Of a stretch of DNA of 64,000 nucleotides, positions 12,303-39,841 are shown one piece after another. Location of the stretch: the NCBI GenBank assembly GCA_021432605.1, contig MU271143.1, positions 2,179,277-2,243,276 of the forward strand. Direction: 5' to 3'. Below the pieces are notes generated by a model that saw only the letters and a list, made by a program, of their open reading frames with translations, did no database searches and was not told where the DNA came from. Each line of letters begins with the position of its first letter. Position 1 is the stretch's first letter. The position numbers and the translations under genes were made by a program. The DNA comes from Coniochaeta sp. PMI_546 (lineage: Eukaryota; Ascomycota; Sordariomycetes; Coniochaetales; Coniochaetaceae).

Positions 12303-13590
12303 ACGAGATACCCCTATGATATCAACGAGCGTGTACCATACCATGTACCAATACTAAATTGCATATGAGAGCTTGGACGGCTTTTAGTTGCATAGAAAAG
12401 TGTATATTTCCGGCGTACTCTCTCCGTGTTCATGTAGTCTGAAACCCCAACCAGGCGGCTCCTTGGACTCTGTGAGCTGTAATAGATCTCCGCTCTTACT
12501 TTTCGTGCATGTTCCCGCTTGCCTGATCTCACTCCGCTCGACTCTCTTTTAGTCACTTCTCATGGTCATATGGTTCCTGCTGAGGGCAACAATCTCTAGG
12601 GATGGCATAGCATGATGCACGTACGGGATCATACTACGACTGCCGCCTCATCTGACCGTCGCTTGGCATTGAGCCACGGCGTGTTGCTCACTGCATGCTA
12701 AACGAACAAGAAAGTTGTTGTCGATTGGGTTGCGAAGAATCGAGAGCACAAACAGACGATAAGTGACGTTTCAGGTTGAGTGGTTCACCAGCAACGGGTT
12801 ACAGAGGCCTAGTGAGTTACATTTGATCTCGTCTTCTGTCGTACAGCGCCAAGCAGGTCCTTGGGAGTCTTTTCTTCGCCCGGTCCAGGTGCAGTTAAAG
12901 TCTCCGCCACCGAGGATCAACTCATGGTTGGCTACTATGTTTGTAACCAACCAAGTCCTGGAGATTTTCTGGCTCAGGACTTCTTCAGATCCTCGCTTAA
13001 GCGTCTCATTAGATGCTGGTAGGCGCCCAGCGGCGCGTTAAAGGGGCGTGTCTGTCTATATGGAACCCCTGTCCCTCGTCGACTAAAGTATGACTTCTCA
13101 TCGGGATCTTCTATATCTGACGCATGTTAGACGGCAACGATTGGTGGTAAACTGGAAAGGGGAGATGGAGTAACCCAGGAAAACAATTAACTAAGGGCAA
13201 ATTGGTCATTCCGAATGACTCCTTGGACAAAGGACTTGAGCTGTTGTGGCATAAGACTCCTTTGACGCGACAACAGAGGTCCGACCCTCGACAACGATCG
13301 TGTTACTCGCCAAAGGCTTCACTTTCCATTCACTGTTTTCCTCATTTCCTTCAGTCGTTCCTTTGATAGCAACTCGCACTCGTCTCTAGGAGACTCTATC
13401 TCATCCATATTTCATAACTGTCACTCTCTTCTTGTTGACTACTTCCGGAAAGTTTTACGTTCATTCTCAGCAAACAGCAGCAGATTCCAGTATTTCGAGC
13501 TTCAATTTGTTCGAGAAAAGTCATTCACCTAACTTTTTGCTCTTCTCATCAACATCAAGATAACCTAAGACACAACACCTATTCACCACA
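12303..13590. other. Intergenic region, LPMO promoter
   Basis: Only short unsupported ORFs. The 300 bp before 13591 are pyrimidine-rich (many TTC and CTC runs), typical of a fungal promoter with a long leader. Confidence 0.45.
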
Positions 13591-15941: not shown

Positions 15942-18900
15942 TCAGAGCCCAAAGCTCGCACCGAGCGCAGGATCGTTGAGACCCGCGACGTCCCCAAACT
16001 CAAAGTCCATATCCTGCAGTATGTCCGTCAACTGGCTGTCCGTGAGGTTCATGTCCATATCAAGGGGCATCTCCCCCAGCCCACCGGCAGATGACCCGGC
16101 CGTCAACCCCTGGCTCTGGGTCGTCGTCGAGGTCGACACGGTGGTCGGCGCGCCCAGTCCGAGACCCAGCTTCTCTTTCATCATGTCCTTGAACTTCTCC
16201 AACAGCACCGGATTGTCGGCAGCAGTATTCTGCGTGCCGAGGATCTCGCGCGCCTTTGCGCGGAGATCCTCGTCCGAGGGGAAATGGCCCAGGCCGAACG
16301 GCGCCGTCTCGGCGGTTATGTACTCCACCAGTCCGTTCTCCAGCTCTCGCGAGCAGAACACGATGGCGGGCGGCGGCAGGCGGCCCTGCGCGAGGGACTG
16401 GATGTACTTGTTGGCCGTCGCCGGATCGGTCTCGAAGGTCTTGGCCGTCGAGCCCGCGCGCACGGCCACCGCGATGCGGTCGGTCTGCGTCGGAGGTGCC
16501 AGGGTGGCGTTCTGGTTCGGGAGCGCGTAGGGTGGCGCGAAGCCGGAGCCGCCTTGGAAGATGTTCCATGCCATGCCGTCTGGAAGGCCGGCGACGGACT
16601 CGTCTGTGATTATGCCCACGTCTTTCTTGAAGCGTTGGAGCCATTCTGCGTTGTCTGCTGCTGTTTGGTTCCAGGTATCGTCACTGGACGGATTTGTTAG
16701 CTATGGGCGGGTGGGGATGTTATGAACGCAGTTTGACTTACGAATCGTAGAGGATCCACCGTGCTTGGTGCTGTAGTTCCTCGTCTGTAGGAACGTGGCA
16801 GTTGGGGTTATTTGGAGACATGGTCGATGCCACCCACCGACTCAGCTCGCGGGCAAGCCTGCGGAAGCAGTTGGCGTCGTTAAGGAAGAAGGCTGGTAGT
16901 TTCACGGGAGGTATTGCCGATCCAGTACTGCTAGTTGCCGGAGTAGGCGCAGCTGCCGTATTAGACAAGACTGTGGAAGGGCTGGCCGCGCTGGAAGGGC
17001 GGTGCAATGTGTATGAACATGACGGCTCGAGAGTCAATGGTGAGTTATTCTTGGGAGTTCCGCCATTCGACGGATGGAGATGCCGCTGCTTGAAGCCATT
17101 CAGCCAGTCTGCATTATCCGCAGCCGTTTGGTTCCAACCGTCATCAAACTCGTAAATGATGAGACGAGCTTGGCGTTGTAGGTCCGCGTCGCTCGGAATA
17201 ACACCTGTCGATAGCTTGGCCTTCACGAAGGATGATAACTCAGCTTCAAGCCTGCTATAGTTGTGGATTGTCGAATCAATCGTAGTCGGATCTTTGGATC
17301 GAAGGTTCACGTCCATTATGTCTTCCGAGCGAGGGAGCGAGGCTCGTTGGCGAAATCCAGCGAGCCAGTCGGTCGAGCGAAACACGAGGCGGAGGAGGAA
17401 GTTTGCTATCTCGTCAGAAGCATTGCTGGAGGACTCCTCAGCGCGGCCCAAAATGTTGCAGGCTTCGACCTGAAGCTCGCTGTCTAGAGCTGTTAGACCC
17501 AATAGGTTCCTGGCCTTGACGTATTCGTGGAGCTGTCGTTCCATCGGGTCATCTTCGAAGATATTGTCTTTGCCGTTGATTTTCAAAACATATACCCGGC
17601 TCTCATGCTGTCGTCTGATCGGCGCCAACTTTGCTTGCCGAGCCAGGTGTTCTGAGGATAACAGGACATCACGGAGCCAGGAGGGCGCATGACCTTTGGT
17701 CGACAAGACATCAGCACCGTATATGATCCGACAGGCTTCAAGTTGAAGCTGTTCATCCGTAGGCATTTTGTCGCTGGTCTCTTGGAAGTTCCACAGATAA
17801 AACAGGAGTTCGCCCTTGAGTAGCTCATAAGCAGTTGCAGGCGACTCGGGTGGGCCCCTGGTGGCCTCGTAAGGCAGGGGAGAATTCCTCTCGTCGTGAA
17901 TGAGATCTGCGCAGCTATTAGATATAATCTCTGGCAGGGGTAAAGGTACGACTTACACGGCGGGATCGAGTTCTCGACCATGTCGAGCACAGGAGCTTCG
18001 AAACCCCAATCACCCTTCCAGTCAGCCATGGTATTACCGGTCTTGAAATGTTCAGCGAGGTGATCCACCCTGATGGTCCACGTGTCCATCACAATACCAC
18101 AGAAACCACATCGTGAGCGAATTTCTGGCGTTGCTACCTTCCACGGCTCCATTGACCAAGTCATGAACTTGGATCCATGGACAAGCTTCAGATGTTGGCG
18201 AAGGTGATCTTTCCGGTAAAAAGTCCTCTCTTCCAAGGATCGCTCTTGGCACGCAGAGTGATTATGGCTCTCGACGTGCGCGTCGTCTGGGTTGGCTTGC
18301 CCACAGAATACACAGGAGATGCGATTGGTCTCCGGGTCCAGAGCGCGAGGCCCATCCGGAGCACATACCCATCTTTCCAACGACAGATGAAGGGACTTCT
18401 CGTGTCTTTGCCAATCATGCTTGGTGCGGAAGGTCTCCGTGCAGAAAGTACACTGGAAGGTCTTTAGCGGCGCCTGGAGGGGTGTCTTCTCATCTGGGCG
18501 TTTTGGTGTCGCCTTTCTCCTTCTCCTCCGGCGGCCGCGGTTGATTGACATGGAACCAAACGAGCCAAAGGAGCCGCGCGAGGCGTGCGAGAATGCAGAG
18601 GCGAATGAACCGCCGCTTGAATGAGACGTATGGGCACTGCTAGCGCCCGTCGATCCTGCCCACAGTGATCTGTTAGAGCCATCGTCTGTGAAATGACCAC
18701 TGTAAGGACTATCCAAGCCCGAGGACGACAGTGTCGTGGTCGAGGAGGCGATGGCGCGAGCAATATCTGTCACTGAAGCAGGTTCGTGTTCTGGTGGAGA
18801 GTTTTTCCACCTGTCAAGGGGCTTCATATGTTCCAGGCTAGGTGTTCCACGTCTCTGAGGGATGTCGATAGGATTGGAGAAAGTTCGAACACCTGGCGAC

Positions 18901-19685
18901 GTGGAGCGCGGTGCCACAATCTTTCCTCTGCGGCGTGCGTTGGCCAGCCAGTTGGTGATCTGGGTCTTGTTCAGACCAGTCTGCTTTTGCAGCATCTCCT
19001 TTTCTTCTTCAGTTGGGTACGGATGGCGTGCGTGTGTAGACAGCCAGCCCTTTAAGATCCGGACCGACTCTCTAGAGAACCGGGCACCGATTTTTGGGGC
19101 AGTGGTCTTGGTGTTGCTGTCCTCTGGACCAGCGCTTGCCGTCAACGCCATCAGCTCAGGGGCAGACGTAGTGTGAAGAAGTTCTGGCTGGATATCCTCC
19201 TGGGGAATCACCCTAGGGTGGTCGCCAAAAGTTGGCCAAGGATTGGCAGGAAACGTAGCGGAAGTTTCAACAGGCCCCGGGGAGGCGAGGCCGAAACTGC
19301 ATTCGCATCTCAAGGCAACGCAGCTGGTACAATAGCCCCTAAATTTACCCTCGTTGATCCTCTTGCAGGAGAAGTTGCCACGTAGACAGTTGCCACAAGG
19401 GTCGTCCGGGTACTCGAAGGACTGCTCAAAGGGTCGAAGCTGGTCAGCTTCTTCGCCGTTCAGCTGGGTACTGGGGCCAACGGCCGGGTTGCTGGCCTCG
19501 AAGTGCTCAAGAGCCCAAAAGGAGAAGTCATCACCCTCGACATTCTCCAGGACTAGATCGAGATCGTTCAATGTAGAGGCGGTTGTGTCCTGGCCAGGCA
19601 AGAAGGTCGCACCACTGCCAGAGTCGATAGCAGGTGCGGCATTGTCCCAGTTGACGAACTCGTCCATCTCCGGAATTGCGGGCAT
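15942..19685 (-). CDS. Homeodomain (KN/TALE-like) and C2H2 zinc-finger transcription factor with CENP-B-like modules
   Basis: Three exons on the minus strand: 17957-19685, 16742-17906 and 15942-16683, giving 1211 aa. The exon sum is a whole number of codons. Order of parts: acidic N terminus; a Cys cluster at about 97-129; a homeodomain at about 201-256 with [12 protein letters not shown] as the recognition helix; a Ser-rich linker; a basic run (GRRRRRRK near 384-391) that may be a nuclear signal; C2H2-type fingers at about 412-433, 458-504 and 526-547. After the first intron come four to five copies of a helical module whose core is LQ..AR.I.Y followed by A...WL..F. The last 130 residues are Asp/Met-rich and may activate transcription. 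The architecture is a known fungal one (homeobox plus C2H2); targets are unknown. The start [10 protein letters not shown] could also be the second Met, seven residues in. Confidence 0.85.
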
Positions 19686-21602
19686 GCCAAGATAAGGCGG
19701 GAGTGACCAAAGGGCGTGGGATTAACCCGTCAAGCTGTAAGTCCGTTGCCGAGTCGCAGAGGGCGCAGGCGACATGAACACTCGCAGGTGAGATGGAGAT
19801 GTGATGACAGATGATATCCAAGGGCGTACAAGGGCGGAGCGGAGACAGCAGATGCAACTGGCGATAAAGCACCCAGATGCCCGCGCGAAAGATCCCTCTG
19901 GCTATGAGAGGATCCGATAAGAAGCTTTTCTTCAGCAGAGAGCAGCAGCCATCGTCAGCTTGCAATACTCAAGCCTTGACGTTGCGAGCTTGTCAATTCC
20001 TTCTGACAAAGCAAGAATTCGCAGGTTTGCACCACAACTAAAACGGCACGAGGGCAGCAACCAAGTGGAGTTTTGTCGCTGACGAGGACACTCCTGTATA
20101 TTTATCGATCAAGTATAGAAACTTGAGATGAATGAAGATTACAATGGAAGATGAGAGTTCGTCTATTGTTCGATGAAATGATATGAATAGCTGTGCCTTC
20201 CCTCAAACTAGCACTTCTTCCAACTTCAGTTCACTTCCAGACAAGAGTCATATGGGATGGAGGTGTGCTTGCAGGGATGCACCTCCAGATGACATTGCGC
20301 CCTTCAATTGACAAGCTGCCAGTCCATACTGGGGTAGTCCAATTGTAGCGTTGCATTCCTTCGCCCACTCGCTCCACGTCACCCACTTTCGCTGGCCTAG
20401 GCGGCCACACTACCACAAGTATGGACATGTACCGCCGCTATAGACGCACCACACCAGCCATTCAGCTGGCGCCTCAGTAAAAAGGAGGACGTTTAAAAGA
20501 AGCTTCGAACGTCCAAGACGAACAGCTTCCATGCAGGCGCCATCTTCAAGATATCTGCCTTACGTCGGAATTAATCACAAGGCTGCAGCGCCACGACATA
20601 CTAGGCTGCCATGCCTAACACATAAAGGGACCCGAGCCGTGCTGAAGTGCCGTTATGGGAATCTCAATGATGGGATTTGTTCGCGAACAGTGCAACTCCG
20701 GCGTCTCCGCCATACTCGAGCCATAATCTGACAATGGTGGCGCCTCCATTGGCTGAATTGAAACACGTCCCGGCCGGGATGCATCCTGCATTGGGTATTC
20801 GAAAGTCATGCGACAACGTAGTTTTCGGCCCGGATCGATATCGGCCTTGACTTTTGGAGAAATGGTCTGTCGGGTACGGAAGGCTAGGCACGGTCTGCCG
20901 CCGGCCGTGGCCGATATCGGGCACGGCATTGTATGAGACATCCCCGTATTCCGCTCTCTGCTTCTCTCCGAATCGCGGTCTTCTTCTGTGAAGCTCGCAC
21001 CGTGGTTGTGAATGATCTTGACTATTGGTACCTTAGGTATCCAGCATCACAGTCTCTATGTCAGATTCGAGTGACTCTGCACTGTGGTTGACGCAGTGTG
21101 TTTTGCTCAGTCAGCGAATATCTTGGCATTCGTGCCGTGGTCGACACTTGCCAGGGCGGCCAGTGCCCTCACCTCCTCGCGCTTGCCGACCACGGCTCCT
21201 CGGGCATCCCGCCTACCAAAGATGGAAGCATCGGGTGAATGGCATCCATTCGATAAGCGCTATCAAGCGCGCGCAGCCAGTTGATGTCTACCTAAGTATG
21301 ACGTCGGCTTCGATGAGCATATAATATGCTTTAATGAGACACGTTGTGGGATGATTCACACCTGCCATGGACAGCGTCGCGACCTCGTCCCAGATATCAT
21401 GGTCGTGAATACACTATCCCTCCCAGGAGCTCGATCTTGTCGAGGGTTTCTGTCATCCATTCCATGGGACAAAAAGAACCCAGACCCAGGCGCCTAGCCT
21501 TCAAACTCCGTTTTGATGAAACACAATATCCAAAAAATCCTTCGTGGTAGAATGTCATAAGGTCGTTACAAGAACAAAACGATGTAGCGGTCACAGACGC
21601 AA
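19686..21602. other. Intergenic region of 1.9 kb
   Basis: No gene recognised on either strand. The left 400 bp are the promoter side of the homeodomain factor. The rest shows short ORFs without family patterns and no terminal repeats of a mobile element. Confidence 0.45.
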
Positions 21603-24076: not shown

Positions 24077-25168
24077 TTAAAGCTTATCCACAAAGTCGAC
24101 AAGGTCACGAATGACTTGATCAGCATGGGTGAGGTATAGCCCTGTACAGTTAAGTCAGCGGCTGCGTTATGCCAAAAACGATGACTGGCACGTACCATGT
24201 CCAGCCTTCTCATAGACCTTGAGCTCAGTCCAAGGGAGCATCTCCTCGACAATCTTGGAGCTTGCCTCGAGGGGCATTCCCTGGTCCGCATCCCCATGGA
24301 GGATCATGACAGCAGGTCGTTTAGCTTCGGGTATCGCCGCCAGCTCACGGAGCTCCTTATCCATGGTCTTCTGGTTGATGAGGGTGCACGTCTTTTCAAG
24401 AGCAATACCGTCGGCCTCTGCGATGATATGTTCGAATCTCTCCAGCGTTTTGGTGCTCAGCTCGTTGCCTGCCTGCAGAGCAAATATGCCGGGCAGAGAC
24501 TCGTGCACGAACTGCGGTCTGTCTGCTCGGAGACCGTCGAGTATCGAGGCCCAGAGCTCATCTGAAGGGCCCAAGGGGTGTTCAGGTGACTGTGGTACGT
24601 CAGCAAACATATCAATGAGACTTGACAGATTCCATGGTATCAAACCACGCGACTTACCGAGAGCGGATATGGCATGGTCGGTCCAATCCAGACGAACCCC
24701 TAGCAAGCACAAGGTTAGTGCTCGTTCAGAAACCTATTGGGGCGCAACGATCACCTTGCAACGTTCTTGTACAAAGGAGCTTGCCAGGTAGGTCAAGACA
24801 CTCTCTGTCCCACCCATGCTGGCGCCGACAAACACAAAGTTCTTAATGTCGAGGTAGGTCAAGAGGCCGACGAGATCAGCCACAAAGGTGTCATAAGTGA
24901 CCGGCTTGGCGGTCTGTTTCGAGTTCCAGTCGCTCTTGCCGAAGCCGCGGCGGTCAGGTGCAAGAATCCGAAATCGATATGTCTCGCAGAGAGGGACGAG
25001 CAAGTGCTCGTACATCCTCGATGACATGGGCCATCCATGGAGGAAAACGAGTGTGATATCGGATATCTTCTTCTTCAGAGGTCTGAACGAGAGGTCTTGA
25101 TCTTCGTCCGGTGTGTAATACCGGTAGAAGATGTTAGCAGAGTCTACAGGGCTGAGGAAGATAGGCAT
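24077..25168 (-). CDS. Alpha/beta hydrolase
   Basis: Four exons on the minus strand: 24755-25168, 24658-24699, 24196-24589 and 24077-24141; 304 aa. The start is the ATG of MPIFLSPVD; the upstream in-frame start-like codon is TTG. The alpha/beta-hydrolase fold is clear: oxyanion HGWPMSS, PDRRGFGKSD, nucleophile elbow GASMGG, acid LHGDADQGMP, and catalytic His in EKAGHGLYLTHAD, where intron 3 splits the glycine codon. Exon 2 is only 42 nt (GFVWIGPTMPYPLS). The closest broad groups are epoxide-hydrolase, haloperoxidase or ester hydrolases; the substrate cannot be read. It lies 392 bp downstream of the fusion enzyme gene on the same strand, so a shared pathway is possible but unproven. Intron 1 has a weak donor (GTGATC). 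Confidence 0.85.
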
Positions 25169-25560
25169 CTTGAACAAGTTACAAGCGCCTGGAAGTGAGA
25201 ACTATGTGGATTTGATCTACTACGGCTCCGGGGGACTTGGCGAAGTGCATTTATATCGGCACTGGCTTCGTGGCTACCTATGACTCTTCGTCAACCTTTA
25301 CATACCGGAATATCACGGCGGTGGTTGTATGATTCGCGATTTGGCAACGTCACCAATCGAATCCGAAGTGCGCCGCGGATTCGTCCGTCTTACGCCGCAA
25401 GCAACCTTTTAGCATGGGCGGGGGTTATGCATGCCGCCTCTTCAGGTAACGTCAGAACACATGCGCAAGAAGAGTTTTACCTAATTCCTCGATGTTTCAT
25501 TATCGTCTTACTATCACTTCTCAATTCTGACATAGGAACGTGTGACAGCTGTTCCTGTAA
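25169..25560. other. Promoter of the hydrolase gene
   Basis: This 392-bp interval lies between the hydrolase start and the stop of the fusion enzyme gene on the same strand. No further gene is seen. Confidence 0.5.
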
Positions 25561-28500
25561 CTAAGCACCACCGAATACCAGTAGACTGCGGACATCGACT
25601 CCGCCGTAGCCATGCTGGCGCAAGAGTTCCCGGCCCCGGTGCACAGGGAACTCGGCCACCACGATCACACTGATACAGTCCGCATCTACACCGGCTTCGC
25701 CCAGCAGCTGCAGCACCGCGCACAACGTCTTCCCAGTGGCAAGCACATCATCCACGACTACTACCTTGGCGTCTCTGGGCACCGCATCCCGACCCATCTC
25801 GATTCTCTCTGCCGTAGGTTCGTGTGATGACGTCGACGCAGATATATGAGACTGGCACTTGACAACAGAAACCGTGGGTGGCGGGAGCTTGCCAGCCTCG
25901 CGGATCAGTGCCAGGGGTACGACCACCCGTGAGGCCAGCGCCGACGCGAAGACAAACCCGCCAGCCTCACAGCACACCACCACGCCGACTTGGCTCCAAT
26001 CGCCGATGAAGTGAGCTTGCAGCAAAGACGTGCAGAGTGCCAGTCCCTCAGGTTGCTCGGCGACACCGAGTATGTGGCGGAACTCGATGCCCGGCCGCGG
26101 AAAGTCGGGTACGGCGCGAACCAAGTCGGCCAGCCGTTGCAAGTCATCGTGCAAGAACGGGAGGAGGTGGTGTATGGCGAACCTTTCTGCCGCTTCGTTT
26201 CCGGTCGTGTCATTGTGGAAGACGAGGCTGGGGCGGTAGCCCATGCCCATTCTGCCGTTGTTGGTGTCGCCATGGTCATCATTGACGTAGCAACCTCTGC
26301 GAGCCCGCCGCGTCTCCTCGCTAGCCTGGATGCGGACCTCGATCATTTTACTGTCCGGCACCAGGTGCGACAAGCTTGCAACCGGCGTCTCGTCTGTCAT
26401 CCCAGTGATCAACAGCACGTCCACATCTGCGGCGCCGTACACCACGTCCAGAAAGTGTTCCTCTGGTAGACCAGGTCTTTCCCGCAACTTGTCCTCGAAG
26501 AACGCTCTCAGTGCTGTTCGGTGTTGCTCTTTATAGTCCCGATCACAAAGCAGACGATTTAGGTCCGCGTATCCCTCCGCCGCATATTTCCGCTTGAGAG
26601 CGTCACTGATACTCACCGCGCGCACCGTGAGGCGTCTATCTGTGCATCTGCTTAGTACAGACACACAGACATTAGCGAAGTAATCCTTGCCAGCGCCATG
26701 TTCACCCGTGACGATAATGATGAGTTTTGACTCCATCGGCGCCTTCGGGAGCGGGGAGGCGAAAGCCAACACATTGCGCGGGTCCATAGTGTGTTTCAGA
26801 TGGGTCAGACGAGCCCGGTTCGGTCCAAAAGCCGTTGCCGCAAGTGCGGCGTCTCTGGGGTCCGGCCCGAGGTCGGCACCGTAAGTTCCGCTGCTCAGGG
26901 GTAGCAGGTCCCTGACAACGGCATATACCCACCTCACTGCGGCGCCGGCTGCTTCTGTGTCATCCTGGTCGCGCGGCCAGACCCCGGTTATCACACAGGC
27001 AAAGTCCCAGTCCCGACAGCCGAACGCAGTGGCATGGGCCGCCACGTCGGCCACCGCTCCTGTTCCGCCGCCGTGCAGCAGGTGGAGATAGCAGAGCGGC
27101 GACGGACGAGCTTCGACTGCCCTGAACAAGACATGGGCAATCTTTGCCTCTGAAATGCATTTCAAGAACACACATCGCTTGAACGAGGAAGTCTTGCCTC
27201 CGCCGTGTCCGCCATGCATGCCGGACATGTATAGTTCGGCGTCAAACAGACCGACCTCGTCGACGAATCTGAAGTTGTCTTCCTGCCGCGCGAAAACTGT
27301 TCGTACGAGCGCGGACGCTGCGGTCTGCGTTGCTACGACACTTCCAGTCGTCGATGATTCGAACAGTGTCACGCCCAGATGCATCTGACCGGCAGTCGAG
27401 TACAGATAGGCGTCCGCAGAACAGTTCCGAGGCAGCTCTCTGGCGACCAGCTCGTCGAAGTCGGTGAGCAGGAGCCGCGCTTTATGCTTGTCCGTGAGCG
27501 GCATGAGCCAGTTGCGGACCGAGAACGTCTGAGCAGGGTAAGCCTTGAAGGCCACGCTTGCGACGATGCCGAAATTGGTCCCGGCTCCTTTGATAGCCCA
27601 AAGCAGATCGGCCTCGTTATCTGGACGCACAGCGCCGGGTGGGCGGTGTTGGCTCGGTACATGGCCGACGCAGAGGACTTCTCCAGAGGCAACGCTGACT
27701 ACAACGGCACCGACAACGGCGTCGCATGCCAACCCGTGCTGTCTGGCCAGGTGCCCGATGCCACCTTGCAGCCACAACCCTGCGCCTACGCTTGGGCGTG
27801 CTCCCAGAGGAACCGTGAGGCCCGCTGCCTTGGCCTTGCGAACAATATCTCCCGTCGTGCAGCCGGCCTCAGCCACAACCAAGGCTCCATCCGCGACAGT
27901 TCTGAGAATGTGTACTTCCTTCAAGGCGCCCATGTTTACTGCAACTATGTTGGACATAAGACAGTGGCCGCTGTGACCCCCGCCAACGACAGTCAGACCA
28001 GTGCCGTGCTTCAGAGCCCATCGAACGCACTCCTGAATATGACCCACCTCCACGGGCCTCACAACCGCTGCCGGACACTTCAGGCGCGCCTCCCTGTTCT
28101 TCACCGTCTTATAGCCCTCCATCACCGGCACGGCCGCTAGCAACTCCGGCAATGCGGTCGCATGTCGCGTAAACGCCACCATGACCTCGGGCGCGCTGAA
28201 GAGCAGCTGGGCCGGGTGACCTTCCTCGCGACGGCCCAAGGCGCGGCACAACGTTCGCCATTCAGTCCGAAGGTCCATATCCTGCGAGACAAACCCCACG
28301 ATGAAAGCAGCGAAGCAGTCCAGTGTCTGGTCGTCGTCAGGCACGCGCACGAGTCCTGTAGGAAAAGAGGCCGTGCGATGGCACACTAGCTCGTTGAGAT
28401 ACAAGGTGTCGCGATGGAAGACGGCCACCATTCCCCCCTCTGATAGTAGTTCCAGGGCGCGCTCGAGAAACTTGCGTTTGGGCTTCAGGCCGTACATGCT

Positions 28501-28986
28501 GTGGCAGAAGAGGATGAGGTCGAACTTGTCGTCAATCGTGCCATGGCCATTTTCAAACTTGCTGTCTAGTGTCATTGGGGCTCGGCGGATGTCGGCTGGC
28601 CTTCGAAGACCAGGCAGCGGGTCGTCCATCTTGCTCTCTGTGGCGGGAGAAAGCCAGGCCTCCAGCTTTGTCGCAAACAGAACATTTGGCTCAAAGGCCG
28701 TGTATGTCCTGATTCTTCGTCTCTGATCATTGGGCAGGTGTGCGAGCACGCTCTTTGGTCCGGGACCGATTTCGAGCACTGAGACATGACCGCATGAGTG
28801 GGTGAGAGAAGTGAGTAGCTGTGATAGTTGGGGGATGATGAAGTCTTGGTATGTTGTCCATCCCGAGCGCACCAATAGATCGAAGCCGGCGCTGTACTGT
28901 GTGTCTGACAAGAGCTGCTTCGGGGTGGAGGCCGTTGGTGGGACGCCCTGCCTGAGGGCGTGTTTTAAGGATGTGAGAGTGGCCAT
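25561..28986 (-). CDS. Four-domain fusion enzyme: methyltransferase, FAD oxidase, PMK-like kinase, adenine phosphoribosyltransferase
   Basis: One intronless frame of 1141 aa, starting at the ATG of MATLTSLKHAL; the open frame continues 22 codons upstream but only to a GTG. Domains in order: (1) about 20-300, Rossmann methyltransferase with motif I VLEIGPGP at 70-77; (2) about 305-750, FAD_binding_4/BBE oxidase with GGGHS (His338, expected flavin-linked), GGIGHLARQHGLACD and the C-terminal BBE block ending MDPRNVLAF; (3) about 753-930, a P-loop kinase with GEHGAGKD at 761-768 and ALKRKYAAEG, close to animal-type phosphomevalonate kinase; (4) about 948-1141, APRT with REAGKLPPPTV and the PRPP loop VVVVDDVLATGKT at 1075-1087. 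All four active-site signatures look intact. The product is likely cytosolic, with no signal peptide. The neighbouring hydrolase follows on the same strand. Each domain call is strong; the joint pathway is unknown. Confidence 0.88.
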   Translation of the reverse strand: MATLTSLKHALRQGVPPTASTPKQLLSDTQYSAGFDLLVRSGWTTYQDFIIPQLSQLLTSLTHSCGHVSVLEIGPGPKSVLAHLPNDQRRRIRTYTAFEPNVLFATKLEAWLSPATESKMDDPLPGLRRPADIRRAPMTLDSKFENGHGTIDDKFDLILFCHSMYGLKPKRKFLERALELLSEGGMVAVFHRDTLYLNELVCHRTASFPTGLVRVPDDDQTLDCFAAFIVGFVSQDMDLRTEWRTLCRALGRREEGHPAQLLFSAPEVMVAFTRHATALPELLAAVPVMEGYKTVKNREARLKCPAAVVRPVEVGHIQECVRWALKHGTGLTVVGGGHSGHCLMSNIVAVNMGALKEVHILRTVADGALVVAEAGCTTGDIVRKAKAAGLTVPLGARPSVGAGLWLQGGIGHLARQHGLACDAVVGAVVVSVASGEVLCVGHVPSQHRPPGAVRPDNEADLLWAIKGAGTNFGIVASVAFKAYPAQTFSVRNWLMPLTDKHKARLLLTDFDELVARELPRNCSADAYLYSTAGQMHLGVTLFESSTTGSVVATQTAASALVRTVFARQEDNFRFVDEVGLFDAELYMSGMHGGHGGGKTSSFKRCVFLKCISEAKIAHVLFRAVEARPSPLCYLHLLHGGGTGAVADVAAHATAFGCRDWDFACVITGVWPRDQDDTEAAGAAVRWVYAVVRDLLPLSSGTYGADLGPDPRDAALAATAFGPNRARLTHLKHTMDPRNVLAFASPLPKAPMESKLIIIVTGEHGAGKDYFANVCVSVLSRCTDRRLTVRAVSISDALKRKYAAEGYADLNRLLCDRDYKEQHRTALRAFFEDKLRERPGLPEEHFLDVVYGAADVDVLLITGMTDETPVASLSHLVPDSKMIEVRIQASEETRRARRGCYVNDDHGDTNNGRMGMGYRPSLVFHNDTTGNEAAERFAIHHLLPFLHDDLQRLADLVRAVPDFPRPGIEFRHILGVAEQPEGLALCTSLLQAHFIGDWSQVGVVVCCEAGGFVFASALASRVVVPLALIREAGKLPPPTVSVVKCQSHISASTSSHEPTAERIEMGRDAVPRDAKVVVVDDVLATGKTLCAVLQLLGEAGVDADCISVIVVAEFPVHRGRELLRQHGYGGVDVRSLLVFGGA

Positions 28987-29014: not shown

Positions 29015-29375
29015 GACGTTCGTCTTGGAAATGTCGGTTGGTGTGCGTACACTGTATTGGAAAGAAATTATGTGTGCGCGTGTGTTATCGTTTCTGAGGA
29101 GAGTCTCGGTTTGAGGTCTTAGCTTTGGAAGGATAGAAGTGATCTGTCTCCGTTGGTCTAGAAGCAGGGGGAGACAGAGAATGATGGCACAGCTGTGATG
29201 ATAAGGTGACTGGCTGGTAAGAGTTATTTATGGCTGGACTAAGCACGAGTCTGCCAGTCACTGGCCAGGTCCTTTTCACGCAAGAAAAGAACCGGCCAAG
29301 TGCTTGGTGTGCAGTGTCTACAATTGGAGACTGGGTAAACACACCTGACCGGTTGCATCAGTCCCAAAGAAGACA

Positions 29376-30080: not shown

Positions 30081-33000
30081 CTATTCCGCCTCATGAGCAG
30101 CATCAGATCTTGGCTCAGGAGCACCGCCACCCGCGCCGGGAGCTGCGACAGGAGCAGAACTAGGCCCGGCACCGCTGCCAGGCGACTTGGCCCGCCCAAG
30201 CGCCCCCTTACCAACAATCTTCTCCGTCCAGTTCCACGGCTCGCCATGTTTCTCCGCCGCTTTTGCTGCCTTATCCTTCTTGCCGCTATCTCCCTCTTCG
30301 TCACTATCGTTCTCATCCCCGCTGTCTGTCCAGTCGCGCTCGCTCCAGGCCACGGAATCCATGCGATCGTAGCGCGGGCGCGAGGCCGGCTGTTGCTGCG
30401 GTGACGCGTTACCCTCGCCACCGTCAGTGACATCGATTCGCGGTGACGCCATCGGCAGCTCCGAGACCTTATCCGTGTCCTCCCTATCCTCGCTCGCCGT
30501 GCGCTGACTCGGCAGTGCAGGGTGTCTCCGCTCCTTAGACCCGGCCGCATGAACCGGAGTCCCAGTGTGATTTTGAGACGCGCCCCGTCCCCTGGTCTGT
30601 CCCTCTCCCTCGCTACTGCCAACCCCGCCATCCACCACAATCCCCAAGCCCGGAGCAACACCCCTACCCCTCCCACCCTTCGTCTCCTGACCCGTCGCAT
30701 CCGGGCCCTCAGCCAGATCCCTCGCCCTCTCGCCCCCGCTCTCCTCCTCATCCCTCGTCCGCGCCGTCGCCGAGTCGCTGAAGTGCGCCTCCACCAGATG
30801 CCGCACGACAGGCCACCCAAACGCATTGGCAAACATCCTCCTGACGATGAGGTTGTTGTGCGCGTCCGGCTCCAGCTTGACCAGGACCTTGCGCCACGAG
30901 AGGTCCCTGTGGTAGGCCCTGGCGATCTTCTCCTCGACCCGCATCTGCGACGAGTCGACCACCTCGTCCGGGTCCTTGTCCGGGTTCGTGTTGGCCGTGT
31001 CGTCGTAGTCCTGCCTCGACAGCGAGGAGTCCTGGTGGGCCGGGAGGCCGGGCGAGGGGAACGGGGACGAGGAGCTGGTCTGCCCGCTCGAGGCTGAGGA
31101 GGCGGTGCGGGACTGGGACTTGCGGCGGAGGCCCATGCCGCTGGCGGAGCGGCGCTTGAGGGGCGGCGGGGGGATGTCGGATGGGTGGTAGATGCGGTCG
31201 TGGAAGATTGTTCGCGGGCGTTTGGAGGGGTCGATGATGTACTCCACCGTCGGGAGCTGGGGGTTCAGGAGGTCGCTGGCTGATTCGAAGAAGGAGGTGC
31301 GTGGTGGCGCGGAGGGGCTGTCGGAGTCGCTTGTGGCGCCGCCATTGCCGGTTGTTACCCTTGACTGTGATGATGCGGCTGAAGGGGTTGCTGAGGGGTC
31401 GTCGAAGTTTATTGTTTGGCTTCGGCGGTAGATCTTATTCTGTTTCGGGCTGGGCGGCGAGGGCTCTTTGTTATCGATTCTGAAGAAGTTGAACAAGCCG
31501 GATAAAGCGCCGTTGTTGTTGGTTTTCGATGTGTACTCTGTGCCCTGCGATTTGTTCTGGCGGAAGGGAAGGCTGACGGAGCGGAGACTCTGGCTATCAT
31601 CTTGGCGCGTGGCATCGGTTGGTGGCTGCGGTACTTCGTGTGAGTCTTCATCGGGCGAAGCGGCACTATCGGAAAGCTTGTCATCCTCTCCATTCGGTGC
31701 CCACGGTCGGAGTCGAGACGACGTGACATTGGCGCCCGTAATCTCTGCCCAGCCGGTGCGGACTACAGTCTCGACCAGACCAGCCTCGCGTCGAGCCTTT
31801 TCAACACGTTCTAGGCCTTGCCAGTCCAGAAAGAGGAGACAGCTCGTCCGCAGCGGTACGATCCCGTCATTGACGACGTTCGAATAGAGCGTCCTGTTCC
31901 GGAACTTCTTCAGCGCGATATGAGCAGGTCCTGTTGGTAAGATGCGAAGCAGAGGTTTTGATTCGGGCTGTGTGTCGCCATATACACGTTTATGCGCGTT
32001 CTCGCCCAGGTTGCTGACAAGGGCTCCCCAACCGCTCCTAGCGATCGTGGGTGCTCTCCATGTCAGACCCAGGTCCTGGCCCGTCCGTCCGACAAGGCCG
32101 AAGTCCAGCGCAAATTTCACGTATAATGGGTTCTCGTGGTTTAGCCCGAGAAAGGGCGAGGCCAGGGCGATGAAGTTGACGGGCTCTATGAGGTCGAAGA
32201 ATTGTGGGGAGTGTTTCTGAATGTATGCTACGGCGTATGTCTGCACCAGCCCGCCTAGCGAGTGGGCAATGAAGCTGATTTTCGTGATTTTGTACAAGCG
32301 CTTGGACTGACTGCTGTCTGGGGGAACTTTGTGCGTAGTGCTGTGCTTATGGGCAGGTTTTGTCTCATTGGTGTGGTTGGGGTCGTTGGCTGCTCCAAAG
32401 AGCGCCTGGGACACAGTCTCGGAAGCTGCCTTCCCAGTCGGTAGGAAAGGCTGGTCTGGGTAAGTCATGGAGAGGACGAAGCGAGCAAGACGCTTGCCGA
32501 GATACTTGATTCCACGTTCCGTGCGAGTCGCGTTTCCAGAGTAGCCGCGCACTATCACCTCTTCGTCCTCATCAGCGCCGCCGTCATCGTCATCCTGGCC
32601 AGGGTCATCGTCTTTGCCCGAAGCTTTTCTCCTGGCTTCACGTTCCCTGGCTCTCCTTACTTTAGCATCCTTCTTCGCCTGCTGGACTCCAGAATCAATG
32701 CTCTCCTTCAGAAAAAGCATGTCCGCACCGAGGTTGCTATGCAAACCGTGCGTGAGCACCACAAGATGCACTTTCCTCGGCTTTGCCGTCTTACTCGCCA
32801 TCTCTTCCATCTTGCCCTGGCTAGCAATGGGCTGTGACCCGCCCTCCGTGCCATCCGCTTGATGATGCTGATGCTTGTGATGTTTCCCATGCTCGTCTTC
32901 CGCGACCGGTAACCTCGGCGTATCCCAGAGGCTCGCTGTATCCTCAACCTTCAACTTGATAGCGCGCGAGAAGACACCCTTGGTCGGCAGAACCTGGTCC

Positions 33001-33572
33001 TTTGCAGCAAGGCTCTGCTGGTAGTCGCTTACCCTGCCGGGATGCGGGACCTGTGCCTGGCCCCCAATGACAGGCACCGCCGTGTTGAGATTAAGGCTCT
33101 TCTCGTCCCTCGCGAGCAGCACTTCAAAGTGCACCGCAGCCGAGGTCGAGAATATGACCTGGCTGGTACACTCTATAACCCAACTGCAGCTCTCGCCCTC
33201 GTGTTCCGGTCCATTTCCAAAATAACCGGCCTTAGCGCCTGCTCCCGCGCTTTGGCGTATGTTATCCGGCACGACGAGGTGGCACGTCCACGTGCCGCCG
33301 GCTTTTAGCATGGGCTCGAACTCGGGAACGCCATAGCGTCGGGGGTTCTCGAATTTCTCGTTCGGGTTGAAGTGGGAGGGATACGCGGCCACGGACAGAG
33401 TGTAAGGGCCATGGACGAAGGCGGCGCGCAGGGCGATAGCGCAGGTGTTGCGGATGCGCAGGTAGAGGAACTCTGGGGAGGGGAGGATGCGGTCGGCCGA
33501 GGGCGTGTAGGTGACGGTGTAGCGGACCACTTCGCCGATTTTGACGCTGCCGATCTGGTGCAGGAGCAGCAT
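30081..33572 (-). CDS. ROG1-type (DUF676) lipase/serine esterase
   Basis: Intronless, 1163 aa. The start MLLLHQIGSVKIGEVVRYT matches the usual start of the large fungal ROG1-like lipases, with an N-terminal beta-rich domain of about 200 residues. The lipase core begins with VVLTHGLHSN, has the nucleophile in AHSLGG, and a probable catalytic Asp in NDGIVPLR. A conserved C-terminal stretch with PDAHNN and RRMFANAFGWPVV probably supplies the catalytic His. Between these lie long disordered insertions rich in Ser, Asp and Lys, including an acidic run (DDDPGQDDDDGGADEDEE) inside the lipase core. Yeast ROG1 and relatives act on monoacylglycerols or phospholipids at lipid droplets and membranes; the exact substrate here is unknown. 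It has a housekeeping look and separates the fusion enzyme from the transporter. Confidence 0.88.
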   Translation of the reverse strand: MLLLHQIGSVKIGEVVRYTVTYTPSADRILPSPEFLYLRIRNTCAIALRAAFVHGPYTLSVAAYPSHFNPNEKFENPRRYGVPEFEPMLKAGGTWTCHLVVPDNIRQSAGAGAKAGYFGNGPEHEGESCSWVIECTSQVIFSTSAAVHFEVLLARDEKSLNLNTAVPVIGGQAQVPHPGRVSDYQQSLAAKDQVLPTKGVFSRAIKLKVEDTASLWDTPRLPVAEDEHGKHHKHQHHQADGTEGGSQPIASQGKMEEMASKTAKPRKVHLVVLTHGLHSNLGADMLFLKESIDSGVQQAKKDAKVRRAREREARRKASGKDDDPGQDDDDGGADEDEEVIVRGYSGNATRTERGIKYLGKRLARFVLSMTYPDQPFLPTGKAASETVSQALFGAANDPNHTNETKPAHKHSTTHKVPPDSSQSKRLYKITKISFIAHSLGGLVQTYAVAYIQKHSPQFFDLIEPVNFIALASPFLGLNHENPLYVKFALDFGLVGRTGQDLGLTWRAPTIARSGWGALVSNLGENAHKRVYGDTQPESKPLLRILPTGPAHIALKKFRNRTLYSNVVNDGIVPLRTSCLLFLDWQGLERVEKARREAGLVETVVRTGWAEITGANVTSSRLRPWAPNGEDDKLSDSAASPDEDSHEVPQPPTDATRQDDSQSLRSVSLPFRQNKSQGTEYTSKTNNNGALSGLFNFFRIDNKEPSPPSPKQNKIYRRSQTINFDDPSATPSAASSQSRVTTGNGGATSDSDSPSAPPRTSFFESASDLLNPQLPTVEYIIDPSKRPRTIFHDRIYHPSDIPPPPLKRRSASGMGLRRKSQSRTASSASSGQTSSSSPFPSPGLPAHQDSSLSRQDYDDTANTNPDKDPDEVVDSSQMRVEEKIARAYHRDLSWRKVLVKLEPDAHNNLIVRRMFANAFGWPVVRHLVEAHFSDSATARTRDEEESGGERARDLAEGPDATGQETKGGRGRGVAPGLGIVVDGGVGSSEGEGQTRGRGASQNHTGTPVHAAGSKERRHPALPSQRTASEDREDTDKVSELPMASPRIDVTDGGEGNASPQQQPASRPRYDRMDSVAWSERDWTDSGDENDSDEEGDSGKKDKAAKAAEKHGEPWNWTEKIVGKGALGRAKSPGSGAGPSSAPVAAPGAGGGAPEPRSDAAHEAE

Positions 33573-34532: not shown

Positions 34533-35864
34533 TTAAATCCTTCCCAGAACGCCTTCTTTTGTCCGCGTTTTCGCAACCACGGCAAGTGCCGCGCCCACCA
34601 GCGTGAAGACGCCGCCAAAGATGGAGACCTGGGTGAATCCGCCAAACCTCTCCAGCATGGCTCCCGTCACAGGAGGTCCGAGAAGCGCGGCGAGCGAGGC
34701 TATCGCCATCCCCTGACCCATCCACGTCCCCATGTCTTTGAGGTCGTCCGGGCACATGGACAGCGCCACCGTCCCGCCAGAGACGATGGCACCCGACGTG
34801 AAACCGAAGAAGATGGAGAAGATAATTATTCCCGCTGTGCCCGAAACTTTGGGCCAGACGAAGACCAGAATGCCTGTGCCCGCGCCCGTTGCGGCCAGCA
34901 CGTTGAGACGTCCGAACTTGTCGGCTGCGATGCCTGGTAGGATACGACCGAATATCGACGCGCCGTTGAGCATGGCGACGAGATATGAGGCCAACGTCGG
35001 GCTCACTCCCTGCTGAATGGCGTATGACGGGATGAAGATGATCGGAACGAACATGCCAATCAACAGGCAGAATACCGACGCCAGCAGGATGTCATAAAGC
35101 ACATTCTTGAAGGCCGAAGGGAGGAAGAAGTTTGTCTTGCGTGGCGGGAGGCGTTCCTTGACCGTGAGACAGCTGAAGACCAGGATGGGGATCATGATGA
35201 AGCCACAGACCCTAATCGACCAGCCGAAACTGATGTCAGACTCCGTGAGCATCTTGCCGAGCGCGATCGGAAACACGACGCCTCCGAGGGAGGACCCGGC
35301 GATCGCGAGCCCCATGGCGGCTCCGCGCTTCTTGTTGAAGTACTGCGGCATGGCAGACATGGCCGGAAACATGAGAAGGCCGTCGGCAATGCCCGTCAGG
35401 ACTCCCTGGGCCAGCATGAAGTGCCAGTATGCCGTGCAGAGGCTGGTCAACATCACGGCCAGGGCGTAGAGGACGGAGGCTGGGTATATGACCTTGGCCC
35501 CGAAGCGGTCAAACAGCGGTCCTCCGATGGCCCCGCTGGCGAAGATCAGGAAGTTCTGGAGCGACCCTATCCACGCTATCCTGTCTGGTGTCTCATTCTG
35601 CAGCTGGTGGGACATGTAATACGCCTGGAAGACACCAAAGGAGTTGGCATAGCCCATGGTGCAGAACAGGATACCGGCTGTCCCAGCGGCTACCATCCAT
35701 GCCCTTAGGCCACCGTCTGGGACGCCGCCGACGCGATCTTCGCCACTTGTCTCCAACGTGTGCTGCGAGGCAGCTTCTGATGATGTGTCGGCCTTTTCTG
35801 TGTCCGTTTGTGGCAAGTGTGGCTCTCCCGCCCCGAGCTTGGGTGTGTGGTCTGAGTTCGACAT
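34533..35864 (-). CDS. MFS transporter, monocarboxylate (MCT/Mch) family
   Basis: Intronless, 443 aa. A hydrophilic N terminus of about 50 residues is followed by PDGGLRAWMVAAGTAGI, the usual first-helix start of fungal MCT-type carriers. Twelve membrane spans can be traced, with GGPLFDRFGAK after TM2 and GIAADKFGR after TM8 as the MFS loop motifs. The family includes yeast Mch1-5 (Mch5 carries riboflavin) and many fungal cluster-linked exporters and importers; substrate cannot be told from sequence. It is divergent from the Zn2Cys6 activator gene, about 1 kb start to start, an arrangement often seen when the factor controls the transporter. No truncation is visible. Confidence 0.9.
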   Translation of the reverse strand: MSNSDHTPKLGAGEPHLPQTDTEKADTSSEAASQHTLETSGEDRVGGVPDGGLRAWMVAAGTAGILFCTMGYANSFGVFQAYYMSHQLQNETPDRIAWIGSLQNFLIFASGAIGGPLFDRFGAKVIYPASVLYALAVMLTSLCTAYWHFMLAQGVLTGIADGLLMFPAMSAMPQYFNKKRGAAMGLAIAGSSLGGVVFPIALGKMLTESDISFGWSIRVCGFIMIPILVFSCLTVKERLPPRKTNFFLPSAFKNVLYDILLASVFCLLIGMFVPIIFIPSYAIQQGVSPTLASYLVAMLNGASIFGRILPGIAADKFGRLNVLAATGAGTGILVFVWPKVSGTAGIIIFSIFFGFTSGAIVSGGTVALSMCPDDLKDMGTWMGQGMAIASLAALLGPPVTGAMLERFGGFTQVSIFGGVFTLVGAALAVVAKTRTKEGVLGRI

Positions 35865-36873
35865 GTTCGAGCTGGTTTAGACCCCGGTTCAGTGTTGCAA
35901 TCAGGGTGTGGTCAATGCTCTTTTGTAGAGGTATGTGGGTTATTTGGGTGGATGTCTCTAGGGATATTTCTGTCAAGATGCAAACTAATAAGGTCGATTC
36001 ACTTAAGGTGCCGCTGTGTGATAATTATGAAGGCCGATGGCATGGGACGAGGGCGGACACTGAAAGCAGAGAGAGAACTGGGAGACCATCGATATTTATC
36101 ATTTTCAACATCTCTTCTGCACGAATAACTAGAATATACTCTGAGAATGTCATCTTCGACCATATCCCCGGTGTCAATTGTGTATATCTTGATCCTTGAC
36201 TTGTTAGTGGACGACATCTCGGTGTCAAGAGAGATGAAGAAACGCTAGCGCCGCGCTAAGCCGGTTATCACCGTATCGCCCCGCTAGCCGAGCCGGTGTC
36301 GCGGACATAAAGATACACCCGTGACCTGACTAGACAGGTACCCCTGCCCCCTCATTCCGCCGAGGTTCCCACGACTCCAACTCAGTCGTGATCTGCGGGA
36401 ACACCTTTCGATGGCTCGGCTGGCGAAACCGACATGATGCCGTTTCGAAGCTCTCTTGACGCTCAATTGTCCGTGGCTGTACCTTGGCCGTGTCTATAGG
36501 ACGTCGCATTGAGGCAGGTACTACCTTACCTACAACCTATTCGCTACATATCATTTATTCCCATTGCTCCATCAGCTCCAGGCAATCCCAAACCAGCTAG
36601 CGTACCTGCCGTTTCTGCCTCGACCTGGCAGTGGTCAAGATCAACAGAAAGCACGGAAAGTGCGATGAGCACAAAGCACATATGGGGATACGAATCTGAG
36701 TTATTTACTGCCCCGGATGACGCGCCAGAAGTGAGTGTAGCTAGTACATACAGCCTTGACTGGGTTGGAAACACCTGGGGTTGTTGTACGTCGAGGTACC
36801 TTTAGCTACCTACCGTACGTCCTGAACTCTCAGCCGCGAGACTTTGCATCGTCCGCCAGCATCTTTACGCGGC
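35865..36873. promoter_or_regulatory. Divergent promoter of MFS transporter and Zn2Cys6 factor
   Basis: About 1 kb between two divergent start codons. A cluster at 36243-36300 holds two AGCCGGT units about 30 bp apart and two CGCTAG cores, one within the palindrome CGCTAGCG. CGG-containing pairs are the usual targets of Zn2Cys6 factors. Binding is not shown. Confidence 0.45.
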
Positions 36874-39841
36874 ATGGATCGAACAGAGAGAGATCGTGGG
36901 CAGCCGCCAGATAGCTCTTCCTTCGCCCCCGTGAATACCATGGGCGGCAGCTTTGCGCTTCAGGACCGTGGCCACCAAGCTCACCAGGGCCACCAAGGCT
37001 ACCAAGGCCAGGGACGGCAGCACCAGCGAGGGCCGGCTAGTATGGGCACTTCTATGGATGACACCGGCAGTAGTAACCCGAACACGCCCGTAGCTACGCC
37101 GCCTTCAGCCGGACACGGACCCGGACTTGGACCCGGACCCGAAGATAGACTCTTGTCTGCTGCAGCCTCTTCCACTACGGCCGAGGGCCTTCTTCCCCCG
37201 CGACGGAAACGCAACCGGCCGGCTAAGTCTTGTCTCCAGTGCCGGCAGCGCAAGATAAAATGCGATCAAAAGCACCCTTGTGGTAGCTGCCTCAGGTCCA
37301 AGTTCGACAATTGTGCTTACGCTCAACGCCAGACAAGGACCTGGCCGCCTGGGGCATTATCGCCGGCTTCCTCCCCCGCCCCACAGTCATCCCAAGGGCC
37401 GCAACACGATCAGCAGCACCACCAGCAGCAACAACCACTCATCCCCAGTGGTCATCACAGTACCCAGTATCACCATTTTCACCCTCACCCTCATCCACCC
37501 CAGCAGGCCCAACAACACCTTCCACTTCCACGGACAACATTCGGTAATGGCTCCCGCGGTGATATCGACGTTGATAGCCATCATGCATATGCTCCAACTC
37601 CCGGCCCCAGTGTTCCTGCCTCGTTACCAACTCCGGTCACATATCCTTCTCCCAACAGCATTGTCACCAATCACAACACGCAGGCCACCGGTCCCGATGT
37701 GGTATCACGGCTCGAGGGCATCATCCAGCAGCTCCAACAGCAATTGGCCCAGCAGACCAAGGGCCGGGACTCTTCAGCTGGCGACCGCAAAGTCGACGGC
37801 AGTGGCTCGGGACAGCTGGGTGAACCCGTGACTGCGAACGTCCGGGGCGTCTTGTCCAAGTCACGTTACTTTGGCCAGAGCCACTGTTTGAACAGCATCA
37901 GATTCGTGAGTTTGTCATTTCTTAGCATAGAGTCAAGCTAGACCTAGATCCTCGCTGACATCTGTCGTAGTTTCCACTTATTACCAACGTGGTTGAAAAA
38001 CTCGAGAAGGATAACATCCAAGGGTATAAGCCATTCATGGTCAAGTGCAAGAACCTTGCGAAATCTATCAAGCAGAGCCGAGTAGGCGCTGTTTTCTCCT
38101 TTGACGTCGGGAAATCCATACCTAGCGAGGAGACGGTTCGTCGGCTGCTCGAGGCATATTTCCGGACATTCGAGACCGTCTATCGGATCTTGCACGTACC
38201 AACCTTCTGGGAAGAATACCGAAAGTACTGGGAAGCCCCTTCAGCTGCCAGCCAGACCTTCATTATTCAGATGCAGCTCTGCATGGCTATCGGGGCATGC
38301 TTTCAAGACGATGTGACAGCCCTTCGGCCCTTGGCCACTCAATGGATCTACGAGGCGCAGCACTGGCTCGCACCGCCAGAGAAATCTCGCATGAACTTTG
38401 CTACTCTGCAGATCATGTGTCTCCTACATCTGGCGAGGGAGACGTGTGGCATCGGCGGTGACCTCACATGGATCTCATCTGGCTCGTTGATGCGCTGCGC
38501 CATGTACATGGGCCTCCACCACGACCCTGACCATCTAGGCATCACGTCCATCCTCCGGGCTGAGCTTAGAAGACGCCTGTGGGCTACTATCTTGGAAATT
38601 GCACTACAGTCGAGCCTGAACTCGGGCGGTCCGCCTTTAATTTCGCCCTCTGACTACGACACCAAGCAACCTGCGAACTTCGATGACGACCAACTACTTG
38701 TCGGCGAGCAGTCGACCGTTGTTCCAAGGCCCAGCGGCTGTTTCACGCAGACAAGCGTACAGCTAACCTTGCTCCGGTCCTTCCCAACTCGCCTTTCGGT
38801 TGCGCAATATGTCAATGGCTTCCACACGACAGCATCGTACGAACAGACGTCCCGTCTGAATGCCCAGCTGCAGCAGGTATCCGCTACCCTGCAGCAGTCG
38901 TATGATCCCGCGGGCGTGCTGCCGAGGAGAATGACGCTGTTCCAGCTTCGCCTCGCCGAGCATATGGTCCACCGTTTCTTCCTCGTGCTGAATCAACCCT
39001 GCCTCGGCCAAGCTCGGAGCAATCCGGACTATTGGTTCGCTCGCAAGGCATGTGTCGAGAGTGCACGGAAACTCTGCGACGGGTTTTCCAAAGCGACGCC
39101 CGCGGGCGAGTCGAAACCTACGGACCCTGTCGATGACTTTGTCCGTCTGTCGATCGCCGGCGCGGGAGCCTTTCGGTCCGTCCCGGTTCAGTGCATGCTG
39201 ATCATCGGCGTGGAACTGATATGGCAGGCTCTCGACGACCGCTCCATGAGACAGGGCGTGGATCCCAACCCTGCTGTCGGGGTCGATGTCGGCTCTGCCA
39301 CTGGGACGGGTATCGGAGTCGCACCGCGCGGCGAGCTTCAGGAGGTGCTGCAGTGTTGCATCGGTTATCAAGAAAGGCGTATCACCTGTGGCGAGACGAA
39401 CGTGAAGGGGTACATATTCGCCATGGCACTCCTGACACAAGTCCAGGCGCTCCTGCGCGGGGCCTCGGACTCTGAGGTCGAACAGCTGATCCTTGAGAGC
39501 GTGCGGACGAGCCTGGAACACTGCTGGAATCTGCTCAAAGAGGTTGCTGGTGCCACGGCCACACCGCCTGCTCAAATCGAGCAGACGGCGGAGAACTGGA
39601 CGGACATCCGGGAAAGCCCGGATGGCAGCCAGAACATGGGCGATGTGTTTGGCTTTGGTGGCGGATGGGACTGGGACGGAGACTTGGTATTTGATCCCTT
39701 TGATTCACGGATTCCGTGTTATCCCCAAACAGAGACGTTATGAGAAATTTACTGACCACGGATGGTTCGAAGCAGGGGCTCAACTTTGACTTCAACTTCT
39801 TTAATTACAACGATATAGATCCTCTTTTCGCTTTCAAGTGA
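36874..39841 (+). CDS. Zn2Cys6 fungal-specific transcription factor
   Basis: Exon 1 is 36874-37905, exon 2 is 37971-39686, and a short exon 3 (39776-39841) is proposed. The start is the ATG of MDRTERD; the frame runs upstream only through a TTG. The zinc cluster Cys120-Cys147 has spacing C-x2-C-x6-C-x5-C-x2-C-x7-C (SCLQCRQRKIKCDQ). Gln/His/Pro-rich text follows (about 170-240), then a possible coiled-coil linker (LEGIIQQLQQQLAQQ). The fungal-specific factor domain lies in exon 2 (HVPTFWEEYRKYW, MGLHHDPD). If the last intron is spliced the protein ends in an aromatic/acidic tail ending DIDPLFAFK; if not, the frame stops at 39743. The former fits an activation domain better. It probably controls the divergent transporter. 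DNA targets are unknown. Confidence 0.87.

Follow-up and report, generated by a model that had tools for sequence, protein, structure and literature searches.

A continuous open frame lies on the minus strand of the 64,000-nucleotide stretch of DNA analysed here (the window) and runs from position 29052, where its first codon is GTG, to the stop at 25561, a length of 1163 codons. Its first Met, residue 23, stands at window position 28986, so the likely protein has 1141 amino acids. Encoded in this one frame are, from the N to the C terminus, a methyltransferase-like domain, a flavin oxidase, a P-loop kinase and a phosphoribosyltransferase. The features are as follows:

25561..28986, minus strand: whole coding frame, likely ATG to stop, 1141 amino acids, four domains (continuous open frame)
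28138..28986, minus strand: class I SAM methyltransferase-like domain, residues 23–305 (sub-threshold Methyltransf_23 match and SAM motif)
26737..28137, minus strand: BBE/6-hydroxynicotine-oxidase-type flavin oxidase domain, residues 306–772 (FAD_binding_4)
26152..26736, minus strand: kinase domain with a P-loop, animal phosphomevalonate kinase (PMK) family, residues 773–967 (P-mevalo_kinase)
25564..26151, minus strand: phosphoribosyltransferase domain of the APRT group, residues 968–1163 (Pribosyltran, VVVVDDVLATGKT)
24167..25201, minus strand: next gene downstream, an alpha/beta hydrolase (bromoperoxidase/arylesterase group) in two open pieces

The four active-site signatures reported by an earlier, sequence-only reading, which named no strand and whose end coordinate, 28986, coincides with the first Met, were all located in the same minus-strand frame (29052–25561), namely VLEIGPGP at residue 92 (window position 28779), GGGHS at residue 357 (27984), the P-loop GEHGAGKD at residue 783 (26706) and the PRPP loop VVVVDDVLATGKT at residue 1097 (25764). 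Each of the remaining five reading frames here contains 21 to 45 stops, and a chance open frame was ruled out, with an estimate from base composition of ~1e-17 for such a length. GC3 is near-equal in the four domains (0.675, 0.672, 0.656 and 0.679, N- to C-terminal) and thus does not point to a junction of dissimilar frames; the joins between adjacent domains are short. A narrow consensus scan revealed three intron-like stretches, all within the first third of the frame, of which two have 60 bases and keep the frame and one has 77 bases and would break it. Judging from the open frame, the sequence suggests a fusion gene without introns. The Pfam search that the sequence-only reading had proposed was run with the whole protein and domain by domain (limits of the methyltransferase, oxidase and kinase parts set by eye) and matched the families; the four fused enzyme domains described there are borne out for three, which score above their Pfam cut-offs, but the methyltransferase falls just under its own. 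Scores were higher with single domains than with the whole protein, with Methyltransf_23 and BBE still below cut-off. The locus is a real, intact-looking four-domain fusion of unusual combination that includes two divergent members of textbook families.

The N-terminal domain matches Methyltransf_23 with 22.7 bits in the whole protein (E 9.2e-5) and 25.6 bits alone (E 1.2e-5), against a gathering score of 27. It is named methyltransferase-like because of this sub-threshold match and the SAM motif, with no profile above threshold. Its matches were at chance level among solved structures (best E 0.24, a regulator), in NCBIfam (BioC, E 0.24) and among plasmids (one record). A histamine-N-methyltransferase-like identity received no backing from the sequence search of solved structures. 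Single-sequence structure predictions of this domain (pLDDT 34.6) and of the kinase plus transferase (pLDDT 39.1) were too poor for use.

The oxidase reached the FAD_binding_4 cut-off both within the whole protein (61.4 bits, E 9.9e-17) and alone (62.7 bits, cut-off 26.4). Among solved structures it is matched best by 6-hydroxy-D-nicotine oxidase (3.3e-19, across the FAD-binding part), followed by EncM (3e-15), which has a weak second match across the C-terminal part. In the alignment, His360 of GGGHS falls at the position for covalent FAD, where both 6-hydroxynicotine oxidase and EncM have their His. The domain thus has in common with these two enzymes and with BBE-like oxidases the FAD domain and the position of the GGHN/GGHS histidine, but it differs from BBE-like oxidases in that the BBE C-terminal profile stays just under its cut-off of 20.6 bits (16.8 bits and E 0.0071 in the whole protein, 18.2 bits alone) and in that the stretch LGARPSVGAG is without cysteine. 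For EcBBE, the residues His104 and Cys166 are given in a passage of PMC11375781. As LGARPSVGAG appears to be the place where bicovalent BBEs have their cysteine, the FAD of this oxidase would more likely be held by one covalent bond than by two.

The kinase is a member of the family of animal-type PMKs, with 65.3 bits to P-mevalo_kinase in the whole protein (E 5.7e-18, above the Pfam cut-off) and 70.1 bits to the same profile (PF04275) as a single domain, against a gathering cut-off of 33.8. Its best solved matches are PMKs (7xnd, 1.2e-4; 3ch4, 0.0073); two further matches at E 0.08 and 0.23 are VsdC and likely due to chance. The P-loop GxxxxGKD and the acceptor-side stretch K-x(3)-A-x-E-x(4)-LN-x-LL-x(4)-YKEQ-x-R are common to the domain and 7xnd. 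In contrast to animal-type PMKs, however, other enzymes are fused to it, the animal PMK equivalog of NCBIfam, TIGR01223, is missed (35 bits for the domain and 29.8 for the whole protein, cut-off 188.15), and the SDIRR of 7xnd lies opposite TGMTD (residues 883–887) in an alignment of middling confidence there and with one solved PMK only. Thr-Asp thus probably replaces the Arg-Arg pair of PMKs (SD-x-R-R), two arginines that are important for the phosphomevalonate substrate; among the matches listed, a literature search on this pair gave nothing useful. The earlier label of a PMK-like kinase is therefore apt for the family but needs qualification for the activity: because the arginine pair is probably missing and the TIGR01223 cut-off is far off, the domain is probably not a phosphomevalonate kinase in function. 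Plausibly, it is a kinase of the PMK fold whose acceptor has changed and might be a nucleotide. A profile of phage deoxynucleoside monophosphate kinases (PHROG) matches residues 771–856 (E 9.1e-5). Fungi have a GHMP-type PMK, Erg8, which serves sterols. In passages of PMC13412983, PMK is named as erg8 and PMK in general is placed in the GHMP superfamily, and one of the references cited there concerns, by its title, the nonorthologous gene displacement of PMK.

Solved APRTs (4x45, 1ore and others; we take these two to be human) match residues 3–177 of the 196 residues of the phosphoribosyltransferase domain at 2.4e-20 to 3.5e-20, and Pribosyltran is reached with 74.2 bits in the whole protein (E 9.4e-21, above the Pfam cut-off) and 78.9 bits alone (cut-off 26.3). 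Most of the domain hence aligns with 4x45 and 1ore (E ~2.5e-20): the PRPP loop VVVVDDVLATGKT is present and aligned with VVVVDDLLATGGT of 4x45, and the PDFPRPGIEFR-type N-terminal motif and the GKLP segment of 4x45 are retained. APRT outscores PurR (23.3 bits) and PyrR (22.3 bits) by a wide margin. The domain differs from APRT in its flexible catalytic loop, which is altered and carries an insertion. In APRT the catalytic Glu sits in this loop; here the loop Glu is one residue off that position in a low-confidence alignment beside a gap, and its placement is accordingly not a confident one. Both NCBIfam APRT equivalogs were missed by the whole protein (NF002636, 105.1 of 125 bits; TIGR01090, 94.6 of 185.85 bits). 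The earlier designation as APRT is thus backed by the best solved matches but stops short of the equivalogs, and because these cut-offs were missed adenine is a guess, if a possible one, for the substrate.

Relatives were searched for in collections of prokaryotes, viruses, phages and plasmids, none of which yielded the fusion. None of the 48 pattern matches of the kinase plus transferase part to prokaryote genome contigs was confirmed, nor was the single match of the full protein to viral contigs. The full protein matched 31 plasmid records, in none of which a single site covered 80% of the query, and the best 20 of these 31 matches were to the transferase part only (n = 15) or the FAD part only (n = 5). 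Among the matches listed, the 15 APRT-region rows have identities of 30–35%, with 29.7% as the lowest. The kinase domain alone had no match in phages and one record in plasmids (E 0.1), which was dropped because its protein, on inspection by eye, resembles a P-loop DNA translocase. PF04275 was over its cut-off in none of two Streptomyces genomes (one at E 0.88) and in none of 396 Actinomycetota genomes, of which one had a match at E <= 0.001 to a protein that looks, on inspection by eye, like an AAA-type ATPase. In 14 control genomes, four had matches at E <= 1, none over cut-off and none at E <= 0.001, and hence there was no positive control. Because the control genomes are empty as well, the result for Actinomycetota lends weak support to a eukaryotic origin of the kinase. 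Similar fusions may be predicted in other fungal genomes as well.

The window is fungal, as indicated by its genes, which include Zn(2)-Cys(6) and Fungal_trans pieces, Svf1 and AA9. A DUF676 esterase, an MFS transporter and a Zn-cluster regulator are located upstream of the fusion gene. The Pfam scan (E <= 0.01) covered 40 stop-to-stop pieces, against a count of 368 pieces of at least 70 amino acids over all frames of the window; among the 40 scanned, no PKS, NRPS, terpene synthase or prenyltransferase and no second nucleoside gene was recognised.

The simplest chemistry that would use all four parts is methylation and oxidation of a heterocycle, ribosylation with PRPP and phosphorylation, with step order and substrate put forward as a proposal. 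The phosphoribosyltransferase would take ribose-5-phosphate from PRPP and attach it to a base-like heterocycle, and the kinase, whose known family members phosphorylate a phosphate group, could turn the monophosphate into a diphosphate or else phosphorylate the sugar. The methyltransferase and the flavin oxidase would build the heterocycle or modify it, either ahead of ribosylation or following it, and the fusion would hand a scarce or reactive intermediate from site to site. Any function of the fusion protein is at this stage a testable guess. We tentatively favour one fungal multi-enzyme protein in which the C-terminal pair may make a nucleotide and the N-terminal pair may tailor a heterocycle, at somewhat less than even chances. 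In favour of it are the single frame with near-equal GC3 and short joins, the three domains above their Pfam cut-offs, the motifs retained in kinase, transferase and oxidase, and the phage kinase profile. A bolder version, which we regard as possible yet doubtful, is that one polypeptide assembles a modified nucleotide not yet described, and thereby defines a class of nucleotide-derived fungal metabolites that need no PKS, NRPS or terpene backbone gene; in this version, alongside methyl transfer and flavin oxidation, an APRT would have been repurposed for N-ribosylation and an animal-type PMK-fold kinase for phosphorylation.

The sequence-only reading knew of no described pathway joining these four activities. 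In line with this, nothing on the four-domain architecture appeared among the matches listed in our literature search (coverage was partial, with most subscription journals outside it), but a partial precedent exists in Cns3. Passages on the cordycepin/pentostatin cluster of Cordyceps militaris describe Cns3 as a fused kinase and HisG (PMC8719641, PMC11946509), and its role in heterologous cordycepin production is given as unconfirmed in one review (PMC8719641). Compared by these descriptions, the common point is a kinase fused to a phosphoribosyltransferase in a fungal nucleoside pathway, which provides a precedent for the C-terminal pair as a nucleotide unit. The two differ in the transferase, as HisG is a phosphoribosyltransferase family different from the APRT type, and in the kinase being followed here by an APRT-type transferase, so that the Cns3-type order is not found. 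Unlike the fusion protein, Cns3 is presented in these passages as kinase and HisG only, with no methyltransferase or flavin oxidase. Counted against the favoured multi-enzyme reading were the lack of a backbone or second nucleoside gene in the 40 pieces and the methyltransferase score below cut-off. Also counted against it were the loop insertion and catalytic Glu placement in the transferase, the low quality of both structure predictions, that the prokaryotic, viral, phage and plasmid collections offered no homologous fusion for comparison, and that HisG of Cns3 is of another family and the role of Cns3 unconfirmed.

The C-terminal domains admit other readings. One or more of them might be catalytically dead and serve as ligand sensors or scaffolds, like the PRTase-fold regulator PurR, as the changed catalytic loop of the transferase and the probable loss of the arginine pair in the kinase would allow; this is unlikely, given that the P-loop Lys and the PRPP loop are both present and that PurR and PyrR score far under APRT. 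A role in salvage or regeneration, with the APRT-like domain and the kinase recycling adenine or another released base to the diphosphate and the methyltransferase and oxidase performing ordinary tailoring, would agree with APRTs as the best solved matches and with a nucleotide-kinase-like partner that would complete the route from base to NDP. We consider it rather improbable, since neither defining equivalog cut-off was reached and we know of no reason for fusing salvage to a flavin oxidase.

Slightly further down in our estimate, and quite improbable, is a prenyl route, in which the kinase would supply a diphosphate of phosphomevalonate or prenyl type and the protein would use its APRT-like domain to assemble a purine that is prenylated or resembles a cytokinin. 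The P-mevalo_kinase score above cut-off and the adjoining APRT-like domain speak for it, but TGMTD stands opposite SDIRR of 7xnd (with the middling confidence noted above), the animal PMK equivalog is far from reached, no prenyltransferase was recognised in the 40 pieces scanned and fungi possess Erg8 for sterols. The prenylated metabolite guessed at in the sequence-only reading is weakened by the same kinase residues and equivalog score. An artefact of assembly or gene model, with separate neighbouring genes read as one, would be consistent with the short joins and with a Met (773) where the kinase domain begins; 1163 codons without a stop and near-equal GC3 in four domains make it very improbable.

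If the four domains of the favoured multi-enzyme protein act in sequence on one substrate, the gene would point to a pathway that escapes cluster mining based on backbone enzymes, and, if true, this would add new specificities to APRT and phosphomevalonate kinase, both of them textbook families. The order of the domains supplies a reaction sequence that is open to direct testing. The alpha/beta hydrolase downstream is probably split by an intron: its first piece matches Abhydrolase_1 (1.3e-16) and the bromoperoxidase 3fob (2.5e-15), and its second piece has a sub-threshold match to Peptidase_S9 only. A tie between this hydrolase and the fusion gene is suggested by proximity only.

The window also holds, by profile match, the following features besides the fusion frame, the open frame with four enzyme-like domains.

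13564-15000, plus strand: long ORF encoding a lytic polysaccharide monooxygenase domain of family AA9
16741-19721, minus strand: pair of mutually overlapping ORFs
30081-33572, minus strand: DUF676 serine esterase ORF
34536-39740: MFS transporter (minus strand) and adjoining regulator pieces of the Zn(2)-Cys(6) and Fungal_trans types (plus strand)
53820-56816, minus strand: ankyrin-repeat frame of 999 codons
60124-60840, plus strand: DUF1810 protein (E 2.2e-47)

The transporter and regulator pieces stand side by side, an arrangement common at metabolite clusters, and the fusion frame starts ~5.5-10.7 kb away from them. The overlapping pair encodes a homeobox KN/homeodomain in one ORF, which also has a sub-threshold C2H2 finger, and a Tc5-type transposase DNA-binding domain in the other; the two are perhaps a single regulator, spliced or frame-split. 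Sub-threshold matches were likewise obtained at the C-terminal end of the AA9 ORF (chitin-recognition) and the N-terminus of the ankyrin-repeat frame (F-box-like). The DUF676 ORF, by coincidence equal in length to the fusion frame (1163 codons), contains long stretches that by eye look low in complexity.
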